A stretch of 35,265 nt of DNA from Lachnospiraceae bacterium. Lineage in GTDB: Bacteria; Bacillota; Clostridia; Lachnospirales; Lachnospiraceae. The notes under the pieces were generated by a model. That model did no database searches. It saw only the letters and a program-made list of their open reading frames with translations, and was not told where the DNA came from. A program made the translations under genes and the position numbers. The stretch's first letter is position 1. Each line of letters begins with the position of its first letter. This document shows, in pieces, positions 1,417 through 9,923 of this stretch. The stretch lies in assembly GCA_024690265.1 (NCBI GenBank), contig JAILCW010000084.1:1-35265 (forward strand), read 5' to 3'.

Positions 1417-2640
1417 ATGAAGAAGTTCCGGGTTTTACTCAGTATCGCGTGTCTATTGTGCTCCATGCTTGGGAGCGTCGGTTGTGGGAAGACCGGCAAT
1501 GAACGAATCACATTGAAGCTCGCTGTGCGCGAAGGCACGTATGGCGAGGTTATCAAGTCATGTCTTGCGGACTTCGAAGAAGAACACCAGGTAAGTTGCG
1601 TGGTGGATGAATATTCGGAGGCCGATCTCAAAGATGCAATCAAGAATAATACAAATAGATATGACGCTTATGACCTGTGTATGGTAGATGGATCCTGGAT
1701 GGCAGAGTTCTGTGAGGAGGATTTGCTGGCGGATTTGTCGGAGTATGGCTATGCCTTGGATAGTGACATTATCGCTGCTACGACCCAGGTGTGCTTCTAT
1801 GAAGGTGATGTTTATCTGGCTCCATTTTATGGGAATGTGACGGTACTGATGTACAACAAGCAGATACTATCGGAGGCGGGATACACCATCAAGGCTGTAA
1901 AAGATCTGACGGATGTGTATAACATTTGCGAATATGCCAAGGAACATGGGAAAAATGGATTTCTATATCGTGGCGATACCAATAATAATCTGGTGGTGGA
2001 TTACTTGCCGATTCTATTGTCCTATGGTGGATGGGTGGTGGATGAGAACTTCCAACCAATATTGACAGAAGACTATGACCTGAGGGCCATGGAGTTCTAT
2101 CAGAAGCTGGTGGCCACCGGAACAGCAATGCCACGAGATGACCTGATGCAGGCCCTTAAGAATGGGGAAGGAGCAATGGCGATTGGTTGGCCGGGATGGT
2201 ATATGGCAGATGATGCGGATACTATTGGTTATTGTGCTCTCAGTGGACGCGCCAATCCTAATGGACCGGCTTATAACTCCAATGTGTATGGTATATGGAC
2301 ATTGGGAGTGCCTAAGAATAGTCCCAATAAAGAGGAAGCAATTGCTTTGTTGGAGCATTTGATGGACCCGCAGAATCAGTTGGAGTCTGTGGCGTACGGC
2401 GGCGTGCCTTGCCGGTATTCGGCATTGTTGAATGAAGACGTGTTAAAAACCAATCCGCATTATGAGGAGATATGTAATGCGTTGGAAAGTGGACAGTATC
2501 GACCGATTATGTCCAATTGGAATGATTTTTCTGAAGTGTTGGGTGGATATATGCGAGAGATTATGGACGGAACTTATGATGTGCCGGAAGGAATGGCTGC
2601 GGCACAAGAGGAACTGTTGGCGCTTACCACGAAGGAATAG
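1417..2640 (+). CDS. Extracellular solute-binding lipoprotein (ABC sugar-binding-protein type)
   Basis: Start chosen at ATG 1417 (RBS GGGAGG at 1405-1410) rather than the longer ORF start at 1264; lipobox-like [18 protein letters not shown]_bac_1-like body ([43 protein letters not shown]). Confidence 0.85.
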
Positions 2641-2648
2641 GCGAATAC

Positions 2649-5600
2649 ATGATCAAACGTATACAAGCAAAAATTGAAAAATGGATGTTTCCGCTGACCC
2701 TGAATAATGCCCTGATTATCGCATTGGCTATTTTTATGGATGTGGTTGGTAGATTGGTTGCGACCAAATACCAGTGGCCGATTTTTGCGGATTCCGTGGG
2801 AACATTTTTGGCAGCGATTTTAACGGGACCATTTGGTGGGGCAGTTACGGCCTTTTTTACATTCGTTATATTGGCAAAGTTTGGCATGCGAACGCTGTTT
2901 TTCTTGCCGGTTGGACTTGCAACAGGCATCTATATTGGCCTGTCTTTCCCACATGGCAGCAAGATGAATTTGTACCGCGTATTTACGGTGGCAAACCGCG
3001 CTGCAGCCTTGGCAGCGGGGATGGCCATGTTGACCAACCTGGTTTTTTTTGACGGAAGTATTGGTAATGCGTGGGGTGATGCGCTCATCGAATGGTTTAA
3101 TACTGTGAGTACAATCCCTGTAATCCCGTTATTCTTAGGATATATGCTTGTGCTGTTTCCGGATCGCGTGGTATCGATATGCGTCGTTATGTCGATGATT
3201 GGAATTGGCATGACACTTGGTAAGAAGCGTGAATTCCCCAAGTATTATTCCATTGCCTTAGTGGGATGTGTTATGGCTGGTATCGCATTTGCATCGCCAA
3301 TGAAGGTAAATGCATCCACCAACGACTACAACTATAACGTGGTATCTGACTATGCGCCAAAGATATATGACAAGTCCGAGCAGTTGTCTACGTTGGAAAT
3401 GAATGCCATTGTACAGACACAGGATAATTATATCTGGGTGGGTGGTAACAATGGATTGTATCGTTTTGACGGAACGAGATTTGAATACATTGATTTGGGA
3501 AACGATATCCATAGTATCAATGCCTTGTGCGTGGATAGCAAGGGGTATTTGTGGATTGGAACCAATGATATGGGTGCGGTCAAATACGATACACAGACAC
3601 AAAAAACTTATATCTATGGTACGAGTCAGGGTATGCCTTCGGAATGCGTTCGCTCCATTTCGGAGGGACCGGAGGGGAACATCTTTGTTGGAACTGTATC
3701 CTATAGTGCTCTGATTCGCCCTTATGGTTTGGTTGGTGTATATAGCCAATTGGATAATCTGACTTACATCAATCGATTTACCATTGATGATTTGGGCAAT
3801 TGTGTGTCCATTAACCAAAGCGGTGAGGCAATTATCACCTCCAATCAGGCGGTGAATTTTGCTAAAACCTGTGATATTCCGGATGCCTATTATGTGTCTG
3901 CGGCATGGGGACATGGCGGCGATTTGTGGTTGGGAACATCGACGAACATCATTGAGCATTATCGTATTTCCGGGGATCGTTTAACCCCACGTGGAAGTGT
4001 CGAAACTGATAATTTGACCTATCATAACCAGCTATACTATTCCTCACGTTATGATGGCGTGTTTGTGTGCGCAGAAAATGGAATTGGCTTTGTCAGCAGC
4101 GGTGCACACTGTTTTGATATGTCGTTGCCGGAATTTAGTAATTCCATTAGTGATGTGCTGGTGGATTACCAGGGCGACGTATGGTTTACTTCCTCCAAAT
4201 TAGGCGTGCTGAAGTTTGCGGCCAGCGTATTTACCAGTGTATCCAGCAAATCAAAAGCAGATATTGGAGTGGTTCAGGCGCTGCTTAAGGATGGACGAGA
4301 ATTATATATCGGAACAGAAAACGGTCTGTTTGTCCAGGATACCTTTACCGGGGAACAGAAGGATTATTTTTGGTTAGCGGATTTTGAGGGAGCCCGCATC
4401 AGCCACATTATGAAGGATTCCAAGGGGAATCTGTGGGTTTGTACTCAAGGGGGATATGGTCTGCTCGAACGCAAGGAAAATGGAGAGGTGGTTACCTATC
4501 TCGGTAGCGATGTGGAGAATCCGGAACGTTTCAATATGACCATTGAAATGAGTGATGGAACCATTGCCGCCGCAGGTATGAACGGTGTGTACTATATTCG
4601 TGATGAGGAAATCATAGACCAATACGACGAAGAGGATGGCTTGAAAATTGCGCAGATTTCCTGCTTGCTAGAGACGGAAGATGGAAAGTTACTAGCTTGC
4701 AGTCAGGGTGATGGTGTTTATGTTATCCGTGACGGCGAGATTATAGAACATATTAACAAGCGAGTGGGAATGAATTCTCAGGTGGTACTTCGGGCGATTC
4801 ATTGTGGATATGGATATATCTATGTTACCAGTAATGCACTGTATTACGATGATAGAGATGTCATCCATCGTTTGTCCAACTTCCCATTTAACAATAACTA
4901 TGATGCTTATGTGACGGAAGATAACAAGCTGTGGGTGGCAGGAAGTGCCGGTGTATGCGTTGTGGATGTGGATGACGCCTTGGCAAATCGGGAATCTTAT
5001 CCATACAAATTATATGATGGCAGTCGCGGTTTAGATTCCAACATTTCTTCTTCCGGTTGGAATTTCTACGATGAAACAGGCATGTACCTATGCTGTACCA
5101 ATGGTGTGCGAAGGCTGGATGTGGCAAGGGATACAACGACCTTGTTGGAATACATTGTTGGTATTGATTCGGCATCGATTGATGGGGTTGCCGGCAAGTT
5201 TGAAAATGGCGTGTATGTGTTGCCCGAAGGCTCCGGAAGATTTGAGCTGAAACCGCAGTTATTGAACTACTCCATGACCAATCCTGTGGTACGATACTAT
5301 ATTGATGGCTTGGAAAATACGGAGGTTTATACGACTCAGGATTCTATGGAGAATATCCTGTTGCCGGAATTAAAATATGGAACCTATGATTTTCATTTTC
5401 AGATTTTAGATCAATACGACGGCAATGTGATTCGCGAGGAAATCGTGCCGATATACAAGGCCCCGCGTATGTATGAGCAGAGCTACTTCCGTGCCTATGT
5501 ATTCCTGGTACTATTTGTATTCGTATTCTCCTTGGCATGGGTATCTTCTGAAATGAGTATGCTAACCACTATTGAGGATCAGTACGAGCAGGCCAGAGTT

Positions 5601-7469
5601 GCCAAGGAAGAGGCGGATGTAGCCAATCAGGCCAAGTCCAACTTCCTGGCGAGTATGTCTCATGAAATCCGAACGCCGATCAATGCAGTCCTTGGTATGG
5701 ATGAAATGATTCTTCGGGAGAGTAAGGACGGCAATATCCTAGAGTATGCTTCCGACATTTATTCGGCGGGACAGACGCTGTTGTCCTTGATTAACGAGAT
5801 TTTGGATCAGTCCAAGATTGAATCCGGCAGGATGGAGATTGTGCCGGTGGAGTATGACTTGGGCGAGATGATTCATAACCTGCATAATCTAATCATCCAG
5901 CGCGCATCCGTGGCAGACTTAAGCCTGGTAATGGATATTGACAAGAACCTCCCGCGCAAGCTGCGAGGTGACGATGTACGTATTCGACAAATCATCACCA
6001 ACATGCTATCCAATGCCGTGAAATACACCGAGGAAGGTGGCGTTTGGTTCAGGATCCATGGAACTGTGGATGGAGATATTGTTCACCTGTTGGTTGAAGT
6101 AGAGGATACCGGTGAAGGTATCAAGGAAGAGGATATTCCACAACTGTTTGCTGCATACCGTCGCATGGATTTGGGCAAGAATCATTACGTAGAAGGAACC
6201 GGACTGGGGCTGAATATTGCGATGCATTTGTTGGAATTAATGGGTAGCAAAATGGAGGTATCCAGTGTTTACGGAAAAGGTTCCAAGTTCTACTTCTCTT
6301 TAGATCAGGAAGTGGTGGATGCCACACCTCTGGGAGAGAATTATGATCCAACCAGATCTAAGATGGTTGAGATCCAGAACTCTGGTGGTAGCTTTATGGC
6401 GCCGGATGCCAAGGTCTTGGTGGTAGATGATAACGCGATGAATCGCCGAGTATTCAAGAGCCTGGTGAAGGATATGCAGATGCAGGTGTCAGAGGCGGCC
6501 AGCGGCCCGGAAGCCATTGAGTTTGCCAAGTCGGAGTACTTTGATGTGATTTTTATGGATCATATGATGCCGGAGATGGATGGTGTGGAAGCTATGCAGT
6601 CTATTCGACAACTACCGGATACGCCATGCCGTAATACACCAATCTACGTCTTGACGGCTAACGCGATTACGGGAGCCAGAGAGAGCTACTTGGCAGCAGG
6701 TTTCGACGGATTTGTATCCAAGCCAATCGTATTCGAGAAGTTAGAGGAAGCACTACGTGAGACCATTCCGGGGGAGAAACAGTTACCGATGCCGGAAAAC
6801 ATGGGCCAGGGCAGTGGCGAAGGCGGACCTTCGGTACCGGATGACCTTCCGAGTGTGGAGGGACTGGACTGGAGCTTTGCCTGGTTGCATTTGCCGGGAC
6901 GGGATCTGTTGGAGGAATCTCTGAAGGAGTTCCATACGCTGATACCGGTTCAGAGCAAAAAACTGGAGGCAATGTATCAATCACTGCTGTCGGATGGTGG
7001 AAGCGACGAGAGCTTAGAAAGCTATCGAATTCTGGTTCATGCCATGAAAGGATTGGCTGCAACCGTGGGTATTATTCCACTTGCGGGGCCTGCTAAGATA
7101 TTGGAGTTTGCGGCAAAAGATGGTAAAATAGACACAATTAAACAACTTCATCCGGTGTTTATTCGGGAGTGGGATTCCTATTCGGAGAAGTTGATGGGTG
7201 TATTTGGTATTGGGGAGGCTTCAACGGAAGAAAAGCAATCCGGCAATCTTGCAGTATTGAAGAAATTGTCCGATATTATAGTAGAAGCATTAAATCGTAT
7301 GGACATCGATCGCGCTGACAAGGCGGTGGCCAAGCTACAGCAATTCACCTTCGGTGAAGCAGCGGATGCCTTGGTTCCGACACTGGTAGGTGCGGTCACT
7401 GATATCGATGAACAATCGGCACGAGATACATTATTACAGATGATGGCTGTGATGAAACGAGAGGGATGA
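2649..7469 (+). CDS. Hybrid two-component sensor kinase: S-component-like multi-TM domain + Reg_prop beta-propeller + TM + HisKA + HATPase_c + REC + HPt
   Basis: N-terminal ~200 aa multi-TM ([28 protein letters not shown]); propeller repeats ([49 protein letters not shown]); H-box [20 protein letters not shown]-box [33 protein letters not shown]...[11 protein letters not shown]; HPt-like [13 protein letters not shown]. Confidence 0.92.
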
Positions 7470-7473
7470 TATT

Positions 7474-7971
7474 ATGAGCGATAAGATGGACTTCGGAATG
7501 GACATGGAAGGGCTGGATGACTTGGATTTGGACCTGGAGGGTCTGGATTTGGATCTGGACATGGACTTTGACCTGGATGGTATGGGGCTGCAGGATTTTC
7601 GCAGTCGCGTGATGGTTGTTGATGATGATGCCGGTACCTTGCGTAATATCAAGAGTTTGCTGGATGGGGCATATGTGGTTTCGGTAGCTAATTCCGGCAA
7701 GAAATGCCTGGATTTATTAGATCAGGAAAAGCCGGATGTTATTCTTTTGGATTATGAGATGCCGATGATGAATGGACCGGAAACCATGGAGCGTATTCGC
7801 GGACGTGCGGCTTATAAGAATACACCGATTATCTTTTTGACCGGTGTCAATGAACGTGCACAAATAGCTAAGGCATTGTCCATGCGACCGGCAGGATATT
7901 TGCTGAAACCGGTGGACCAAAACAAGCTTTTAATGACGATTTTGGACGCGTTAAATGCATCTGCCCAATAA
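7474..7971 (+). CDS. Single-domain response regulator with low-complexity Asp/Leu/Met-rich N-terminus
   Basis: REC signature VMVVDDDAGTLRNI...PDVILLDYEMPMMNG...PIIFLTG...GYLLKPVD, preceded by MDFGMDMEGLDDLDLDLEGLDLDLDMDFDLDGMG. Confidence 0.9.
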   Translation: MSDKMDFGMDMEGLDDLDLDLEGLDLDLDMDFDLDGMGLQDFRSRVMVVDDDAGTLRNIKSLLDGAYVVSVANSGKKCLDLLDQEKPDVILLDYEMPMMNGPETMERIRGRAAYKNTPIIFLTGVNERAQIAKALSMRPAGYLLKPVDQNKLLMTILDALNASAQ

Positions 7972-7977
7972 GCGGGC

Positions 7978-8006
7978 TAGACACTTTTCGAAAGGCAGGT
8001 TATAAT
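7978..8006 (+). promoter_or_regulatory. Sigma-A-type promoter for the downstream ncRNA
   Basis: TAGACA (7978-7983), 17-bp spacer, TATAAT (8001-8006). Confidence 0.75.
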
Positions 8007-8012
8007 ATAGTT

Positions 8013-8260
8013 AACCTGAAATGTTCGATATAGCCTGTAGTTTTTGAACCTACATTTACTTTAAACGGGATCCCAACATTATCTTTCTGATGTCAGGCCA
8101 AGGTAACAGCCTTTGCTGGAGAGCTTAAGCTCCGTTGGAGGACAGAAGACTGAATTGCGGTAACCCACCTAGCTGTTGCTAGGAGTCAAAAATGCAGGTC
8201 CGGCATTTTGGGCGGCGTGATGATTCGAGTCCTGTGTTACGATGATGCAGGACTCTTTTT
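8013..8260 (+). ncRNA. ssrS: Structured non-coding RNA, probably 6S RNA
   Basis: Stand-alone transcription unit with strong promoter and Rho-independent terminator and no ORF. 5' CCTGAAATGTTCGAT..., TGTAGTTTTTGAACCTACA hairpin, CAAGGTAACAGCCTTTGCTGGAGAGC, and CCTAGCTGTTGCTAGG hairpin resemble 6S RNA from memory; not verified with a covariance model. Confidence 0.6.
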
Positions 8261-8287: not shown

Positions 8288-9607
8288 ATGGTTGAAATCA
8301 TATTGTTCTACTGGCCGAAACTGGTGGCCGGAGCATGGTTTGCATTATTTAATTTCCTGATGGGAAGGAAGAACGACAATAAGGGGCGTTTACCGGCAGT
8401 TCTTCATTTCCTGGTTCTTTTCTTGTGCTCAAGTGCAGTAGTATCTCTCATTGCTGAACTTTTTTCTTATGAGGTATATTATTACATCTTCATTACGAAA
8501 TTAAATATGGCTCTACAGCCGCTGGCGTATGTGGTACTACAGATTTTTATTGATGGTATCTTTATCGTGATTGGTGGTTTCGTATTCAGTAAGACTTCCA
8601 ATTTACATTCCTTCAAGGGCGCAGCAATTTATATGCAGTTCGTGTGCATCGAGCGGTTGGCAATCATCATTGCTGTGGAACAGTGGGGTTTATTGGTGCT
8701 TTTGATCCTGTTCCAAAGTGTTGTAATCTTCACCCAGTGGAAGTTCATTCCTTTGGTGGAGTCCGTGGACCGTTATAACTGGCGACGGATGTTTATCTAT
8801 CTTACTTTTTTGTTCTATGTACTAGACGTGTTATACGGGGCATTTTACATATTCCCGGAGCTGAAAACCAATGAGATGGATATAACGAACTTGGTGTGGC
8901 TGGATTCTATTGCTTTTGTAAGTAGTGCCTTCGTATTGGGGTTCATTCACTCTAGTCTCAAGGAGATTCAGCAGGAACATACCAAGCTACAGTATCTGGA
9001 AAAATTGCAGCATAATCAGGAAGATTTGGTTGTGGCTTTAACGGAGATTATGGGCGCAAAGTCTGATGAGACGGGGCAGCATATTCGCCGAGTTGCGGAA
9101 TACAGTTGCTGTATGGCAGAACGGTTGTTGAAGGATGAGATGGAGATTCAGATCCTCCGTACAGCAGCTATGATGCATGATATTGGCAAGCTGATGATTC
9201 CACAGGAGATTCTTTTTAAGCCGGAACGATTGTCTATGAAGGACTATGAAGTGGTAAAAAAGCACGCCCGCTATGGCTGGGATTTGTTGGCAAAGTCCAA
9301 GGAGCCTATGATGAAGATGGCTCGGACCATCGCCTATGAACATCATGAGCATTGGGATGGTAATGGATATCCGAAGGGGTTGAAGGGCAATGAGATTTCT
9401 ATCTATGCCCAGATTGTGGCTGTGGCAGATGTATATGATGCGTTGACTAGCAAGCGTTGTTATCGAGAAGCTTGGAAGTCGGAGGATGCTGCGGCGGAGA
9501 TTGTTCAGAATAAGGGCAAGAAGTTTGCTCCACAGGTGGTGGATGTGTTTGTTTCACGCTTTGATGACATTGAAGCAATTCGTTTGCAATATGCGGATGA
9601 AGCATAG
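8288..9607 (+). CDS. HD-GYP domain protein with N-terminal multi-TM region (putative c-di-GMP phosphodiesterase)
   Basis: TAAMMHDIGKLMIPQEILFKPERL...HHEHWDGNGYPKGLKGNEISIYAQIVAVADVYDALTSKRCYREAW. Confidence 0.92.
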   Translation: MVEIILFYWPKLVAGAWFALFNFLMGRKNDNKGRLPAVLHFLVLFLCSSAVVSLIAELFSYEVYYYIFITKLNMALQPLAYVVLQIFIDGIFIVIGGFVFSKTSNLHSFKGAAIYMQFVCIERLAIIIAVEQWGLLVLLILFQSVVIFTQWKFIPLVESVDRYNWRRMFIYLTFLFYVLDVLYGAFYIFPELKTNEMDITNLVWLDSIAFVSSAFVLGFIHSSLKEIQQEHTKLQYLEKLQHNQEDLVVALTEIMGAKSDETGQHIRRVAEYSCCMAERLLKDEMEIQILRTAAMMHDIGKLMIPQEILFKPERLSMKDYEVVKKHARYGWDLLAKSKEPMMKMARTIAYEHHEHWDGNGYPKGLKGNEISIYAQIVAVADVYDALTSKRCYREAWKSEDAAAEIVQNKGKKFAPQVVDVFVSRFDDIEAIRLQYADEA

Positions 9608-9659: not shown

Positions 9660-9923
9660 AGCGAACAAAGACTGTGAATGCGCATAGTAGGTCTGTGAGA
9701 TCTTCCAAAGAGAGAGCGGGTGTCGTCGGCTGGAAGCACCGCAGGAAGCACAGAATGAATTTTCACGCAGGAGTCGCATAGCTGATGGAGGGAATCTCAG
9801 TAGGTTATGACGGGTAGCGCACGTTACGCGTACATGAGTGTCGAGAATAGATGATTCTCGGAATCAGGGTGGTAACGCGGATTTTTCATTCGTCCCTAAT
9901 ATAATTAGGGACGAATTTTTTTT
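9660..9923 (+). promoter_or_regulatory. T-box leader controlling pheST
   Basis: T-box sequence AGGGTGGTAACGCGG (9866-9880) followed by terminator ATTCGTCCCTAAT/ATTAGGGACGAAT + T-run, directly upstream of a phenylalanyl-tRNA synthetase gene. Confidence 0.93.

Follow-up and report, generated by a model that had tools for sequence, protein, structure and literature searches.

A permease-free solute-binding lipoprotein, an S-component–propeller hybrid kinase and a stand-alone receiver: a candidate three-component phosphorelay in Lachnospiraceae

Results

Genes and flanks of the locus

The window, i.e., the whole stretch of DNA that was analysed (35,265 bp), is the entire contig JAILCW010000084.1 of a Lachnospiraceae bacterium whose genome is 77% complete; context further upstream than the contig was taken from the loci of relatives. 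Three genes on the same strand encode a solute-binding protein (SBP), a hybrid histidine kinase, and a stand-alone receiver (Table 1), and their gaps of 8 and 4 bp reproduce the near-contiguous three-gene sensory operon proposed in the sequence-only reading. The same reading had claimed that the SBP has no ABC permease or ATPase genes alongside, and Pfam indeed revealed no ABC genes in the flanks, which hold a DUF4214 gene and repeats upstream, and a 6S RNA, an HD-GYP gene, a T-box, and pheST downstream. The SBP gene starts at an ATG (1417) preceded by AGGGAGG, and a longer GTG frame from 1264 is also open.

The HD-GYP gene (8288-9607) was considered as a fourth operon member and excluded, because the 6S RNA gene and a terminator precede it and make it a separate unit; it is also absent from this place in the related genome G002. 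The 6S RNA gene (RF00013) occupies 8010-8218, in the interval that parts the receiver gene from the HD-GYP gene, and a promoter-like site precedes it at 7978-8006. A T-box leader (RF00230) lies at 9665-9900, upstream of pheST. On the other side of the operon, a non-coding element of about 400 bp (434-832) has inverted ends of ~35 bp (CTAACCCCGTCCCGG...) and is MITE-like. Most of its length has a 90% copy at G000:C13:464-745, its ends are scattered over other contigs, and another end-like piece is found at 1048-1093.

Table 1. Positions of the operon genes, the kinase and receiver domains, and the downstream hairpin in the window
Feature	Position	Strand	Residues	Basis and remarks
Solute-binding lipoprotein, CUT1/MalE type, SBP_bac_8	1417..2640	+	407 aa	lipobox Cys23; without cognate permease genes
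Hybrid histidine kinase	2649..7469	+	1606 aa	S-component domain - TM - propeller/stalk - TM - HisKA - HATPase - REC - HPt
S-component-like membrane domain, relative of CD3073-type ECF S components	2649..3218	+	aa 1-190	alignment, Pfam of relatives, AlphaFold model, Foldseek, NCBIfam
Hydrophobic segment, taken to carry the chain outside	3243..3308	+	aa 199-220	hydropathy; low model confidence
Extracytoplasmic beta-propeller region, Reg_prop repeats	3336..5183	+	aa 230-845	Pfam, model
Beta-sandwich stalk, counterpart of Y_Y_Y in HTCS sensors	5196..5468	+	aa 850-940	model, alignment to 3v9f/4a2l
Transmembrane helix, back to the cytoplasm	5478..5567	+	aa 944-973	hydropathy, model
HisKA, phospho-acceptor H1005	5631..5828	+	aa 995-1060	Pfam
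HATPase_c with N and G boxes	5967..6308	+	aa 1107-1220	Pfam
Receiver domain (REC), D1304	6414..6755	+	aa 1256-1369	Pfam
HPt domain, H1464	6960..7130	+		weak Pfam match, residue conservation
Stand-alone response regulator, receiver only, D93	7474..7971	+	165 aa	Pfam Response_reg
Rho-independent terminator-like hairpin, 13 pairs	8227..8255	+		together with the 6S RNA, separates the operon from the HD-GYP gene

The kinase and its receiver

The kinase had been described from the sequence as an S-component-like membrane domain, an extracytoplasmic propeller, and a full HisKA-HATPase-REC-HPt relay, and each of these parts was recovered. Judged by hydropathy, its chain would run from the S domain through helix 199-220 to the outer domain, and through helix 944-973 to the cytoplasmic kinase; the segment 192-229 was modelled with low confidence.

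The S-component identity of aa 1-190 is sound, as it is based on alignment, the Pfam matches of relatives, and the AlphaFold model with its Foldseek matches. The domain of the window protein has no Pfam match of its own; it aligns with 20 relatives, among them two stand-alone S components encoded in ECF operons (G036 and G027), and PF12822 (ECF_trnsprt) is matched at E <= 0.1 by 13 of the 21 rows. An ECF relative matches NCBIfam ECF_S_CD3073, below the cut-off of that model. Receptors and transporters share residues P44, D48, G51, G60, N130, G136, N140, G143, and D172 without exception. Searching PDB sequences with the S-domain profile yielded no useful match, and the fold was therefore examined by structural comparison: the model (pLDDT 87, pTM 0.81) has the six-helix S-component fold, and Foldseek against the PDB returned RibU and ThiT first, with TM (target) of 0.56-0.68 and probability of 0.99-1.0 and E-values of only 0.09-0.2. 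The 5TMR-LYT family (PF07694) matches 7 of the 21 rows weakly, the window row being unmatched. The EcfT-docking AXXXA motif of helix 1 is present as A21xxxA25 in the window, and the same columns are not kept in the relatives, including the two from ECF operons. In these two operons, the neighbours of the S component are EcfT and a nucleoside-phosphorylase gene, and the one operon that was scanned also has a double EcfA.

The outer domain matches Reg_prop in Pfam at 1e-23, and its model (aa about 230-940) aligns along its entire extent with BT3049 and BT4663, two HTCS sensors of Bacteroides; the match to 3v9f has an E-value of 2.5e-38 and a TM of 0.74 on target length, and 3v9f was also matched by sequence. 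The stalk has no Pfam Y_Y_Y match. On the cytoplasmic side, the four relay domains carry all phospho-residues (H1005, D1304, and H1464 in the kinase, D93 in the receiver protein). The Pfam match of the HPt domain is weak (E 0.001, below cut-off), and H1464 is conserved in 10 of 10 aligned relatives. An AraC-type HTH output is absent from the C-terminus of the kinase according to Pfam.

The stand-alone receiver matches Response_reg alone in Pfam, with no output domain. Its N-terminus (7474-7600) is an acidic LD-repeat tail (DLDLEGLDLDLDMDFDLD), conserved in five aligned members of the SBP-linked clade described below. In most sister systems, the receiver is replaced by a protein of ~255 residues whose N-terminal half reads as receiver-like in the alignment, and it is in the place of this half that the SBP-linked clade has the acidic tail. 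The conserved tail, together with the lack of an output domain, indicates that output is likely to occur by protein contact.

The SBP and its relatives

The SBP has the lipobox GSVGC and matches PF13416 (SBP_bac_8) and PF01547 (SBP_bac_1) at 6e-31 and 2e-28, respectively. At a threshold of E <= 1e-40, relatives were detected in 13 of 299 family genomes. Six of these relatives sit with MalF/MalG-type permease genes (G249, G227, G084, G293, G191, and G106), while the remaining ones with readable context adjoin histidine kinase, GGDEF, or receiver genes and have no adjacent permeases. The linked MalF/MalG-type permeases that mark the SBP of a CUT1 importer are thus present in cousins and missing at the window locus. 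The tree was rebuilt without the distant SBP of G000:C186, whose long branch had dominated the first one; permease-linked and permease-free members fall on opposite sides of one branch with moderate support (79/82). The genome also encodes a paralogue (C65, 44%), whose gene overlaps one for a dCache-GGDEF protein and has no permease directly beside it.

Across 16 SBP members, 43 residues are invariant, including the lipobox Cys and several Trp/Tyr, and in this alignment no fixed difference sets the signal SBPs apart from the four closest permease-linked members. Ligand binding is therefore probably retained, and the alignment is consistent with an SBP taken from a transporter and re-used for sensing with its pocket kept. 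Inferred from the family, the ligand is probably carbohydrate-like, i.e., of the same class as that of the transporter-linked cousins; NCBIfam names of these cousins, tried for the ligand, gave only sub-threshold matches. The CUT1-type transporters of this subfamily at L070, L071, L073, and L078 carry an MBL-fold protein (ComEC/Rec2-like where scanned), and some also have a PfkB-family kinase; this combination is unusual, and no sugar is assigned to it.

Recurrence of the gene set

A gene-neighbourhood check found homologous kinases near SBP genes at six loci, namely in four species of the genus (window, G001, G002, and G003), in another genus (G061:C43), and at a MAG locus from an independent collection (L127). 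The six kinases form one clade (SH-aLRT 100). Two marks of an SBP-dependent three-component system were found, i.e., a conserved operon of SBP, histidine kinase, and response regulator, and a cluster free of permease and ATPase genes. The kinase directly follows the SBP, with no cyclase, in the window, G001, G002, G061:C43, and L127; a dCache-HAMP-GGDEF gene lies between the two in G003, and the set is split over contigs in G001, where the link to the receiver was read on the second contig. Cognate ABC permeases just outside the window might have been the missing neighbours, but in G002 (91% complete) the flanks are PEPCK upstream and pheST downstream, and the nearest PF00528 match is about 25 kb away. 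Neither of the two outcomes that would have contradicted the sequence-only reading was thus obtained.

A wider family of S-propeller receptors

The propeller has relatives in 98 of 397 family genomes. A separate scan of named genomes revealed 80 propeller loci, nearly all in Lachnospiraceae and other Clostridia, many from the rumen, and one in a Treponema MAG. These loci were found by an alignment-based scan; the sensor half of the kinase, used as a single-protein query against genome contigs, returned none. In the tree set, the S-propeller module is fused to a histidine kinase at 41 loci, to HD-GYP at 23, and to GGDEF at 19.

The 35 other S-propeller kinases, about a third of which lie near a contig end, have no adjacent SBP of the window SBP's family, so that the architecture needs none and the SBP has been added in a single clade. 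Other SBP classes were looked for upstream of the sister receptors that lack an SBP, and the genes scanned there were mostly housekeeping. HD-GYP receptors are accompanied by an SBP of another kind: in 21 of the 23 (L184:11732-12928 and 20 sister loci), a BMP/PnrA-type SBP, unrelated to the class of the window SBP, is encoded immediately downstream, and most of these gene pairs overlap by 4 nt. No PF02653 permease was found anywhere in G005 (94% complete) or G011 (99% complete), or near the BMP-SBP/HD-GYP loci in four other genomes. None of the 19 GGDEF-fused receptors has an SBP of either class. Orphan SBPs of two unrelated classes are thus linked to this type of receptor, CUT1-type ones to kinases and BMP-type ones to HD-GYP receptors.

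The S-propeller-HD-GYP receptor in the Treponema MAG (L187) suggests transfer or misbinning. At L042:9944-12106, L045:7380-9491, and L120:13106-15232, proteins with a partial S-domain match and HD-GYP are encoded separately beside propeller kinases, which indicates that the S-like domain and the propeller can reside in separate, paired genes.

Discussion

The locus is best read as a three-component phosphorelay that resembles CuaDSR and is assisted by its SBP. This interpretation is reasonably probable and bears out the suggestion of the sequence-only reading that the SBP may be a ligand receptor for the kinase and not for transport. It is supported by the permease-free recurrence of the set, the split in the SBP tree, the parallel of BMP-type SBPs with HD-GYP receptors, the intact relay, and the precedent of CuaDSR. 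Its support is limited by the kinases that lack an SBP, the cyclase in G003, the moderate strength of the SBP-tree split, and the unlinked permeases in the genome.

Gene order and its conservation, the lack of permease genes, the domain homologies, and the intact relay residues are observed, whereas the contact of SBP and kinase, the nature of the ligand, the way in which the signal runs, and the output are inferred. The SBP, anchored outside the membrane, would capture a solute without delivering it to an ABC permease, and would dock on the outer part of the kinase, which comprises the propeller/stalk and the side of the S-component domain that faces outward. This contact, perhaps in combination with a ligand bound by the S-component pocket, may alter the kinase dimer, and phosphate would pass from H1005 to D1304, to H1464 of the HPt domain, and to D93 of the stand-alone receiver, which would act on a partner protein rather than on DNA through its receiver face and acidic tail.

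Alternatively, the SBP might serve a distant ABC permease, with the kinase sensing through its own propeller and S domain and controlling SBP expression, so that the two genes are merely co-regulated. The genome of the window has 30 PF00528 matches, the closest SBP cousins work beside MalF/MalG-type permeases, and most sister kinases need no SBP. However, the permease-free placement is kept at every SBP-linked kinase locus and beside diguanylate cyclases, and orphan BMP-type SBPs accompany the HD-GYP sister branch even in genomes that lack that permease class, which makes co-regulation rather unlikely.

The dCache-GGDEF gene between SBP and kinase in G003 could encode the real partner of the SBP there, and SBP-GGDEF pairs also occur at G000:C65 and G061:C38. 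By extension, the SBP would act on a diguanylate cyclase in the manner of NspS-MbaA, the kinase would be an independent neighbour, and the window operon would have lost its cyclase. We regard this as decidedly unlikely, because five of the six loci have the kinase directly after the SBP, and the SBP paralogues beside cyclases form a branch of their own. That the S-component domain still transports, docking on the shared ECF module so that the kinase both imports and senses, is extremely improbable: the close homology to S components of ECF operons and A21xxxA25 would fit, but the AXXXA pair is not kept in relatives, receptors of S-component fold are reported without AXXXA (PMC11109136), and a domain burdened with a 750-residue outer part and a kinase seems unlikely to topple.

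Beyond the preferred SBP-assisted phosphorelay, a more general proposal can be made, which we put forward as speculative and quite unlikely to hold. Lachnospiraceae might possess a receptor class that pairs the capture devices of two known kinds of importer, a lipoprotein SBP (ABC) and an S component (ECF), without an ATPase, in which the SBP would pass its solute via or onto the propeller to the S pocket, and occupancy would drive a kinase, diguanylate cyclase, or HD-GYP output. Its ligand in the HD-GYP branch would be a nucleoside, as suggested by the BMP/PnrA-type SBP and the uridine-phosphorylase-like gene next to ECF relatives of the S domain. For the S domain itself, the BMP-type SBPs and the neighbouring phosphorylase gene are a circumstantial hint of a nucleoside ligand.

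The preferred SBP-assisted reading would extend this kind of signalling to receptors with an ECF S component and an HTCS-like propeller, which are common in Lachnospiraceae, many of them from the rumen, and have three interchangeable outputs. Their recurrence with two unrelated SBP classes, including in genomes without the matching permease class, makes the role of orphan SBPs directly testable, and the SBP offers a handle for the ligands of receptors that have so far been unassigned.

Besides CuaDSR, XylFII-LytS is another close known SBP-linked three-component system. In CuaDSR of Ruminiclostridium cellulolyticum, an SBP-histidine kinase-response regulator system, the SBP binds the kinase (PMC10384115). 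As in that system, a lipoprotein SBP gene lies here beside kinase and regulator genes in a set without a permease. The components are different: CuaS, a HAMP kinase, has two TM segments and an outer domain of no assigned class, in place of the S-component domain, propeller, REC, and HPt of the window kinase, and CuaR binds DNA as a regulator of the AraC type, whereas the window regulator has no output domain. NspS-MbaA, in which an orphan SBP controls a membrane c-di-GMP enzyme (a GGDEF/EAL receptor), parallels the SBP-GGDEF and BMP-HD-GYP pairs, but its SBP class and receptor architecture differ from those found here.

Sensor kinases of S-component fold are known from the 5TMR-LYT group (YpdA, BtsS, and KinB; Partipilo & Slotboom 2024, PMC11109136), and the text of that paper mentions neither propellers nor solute-binding proteins. 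As in YpdA, BtsS, and KinB, the S-component fold serves here as the membrane sensor of a histidine kinase; unlike in 5TMR-LYT kinases, the S domain of the window is nearest to S components of the PF12822/CD3073 type, can be recognised from its sequence, and precedes a large extracytoplasmic propeller. The kinase shares with the Bacteroides HTCS (BT3049, BT4663) a double propeller and stalk and one TM leading to HisKA-HATPase-REC. HTCS have no N-terminal S-component domain and end in an AraC-type HTH, whereas the window system has REC-HPt with a separate receiver, belongs to a Gram-positive lineage, and includes an SBP gene. A literature search, with most subscription papers outside its coverage, found no combination of SBP, S component, and propeller. 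SBP-histidine kinase-response regulator systems in Clostridia, kinases of S-component fold, and HTCS propellers are already known singly; the receptor architecture found here appears to be new.
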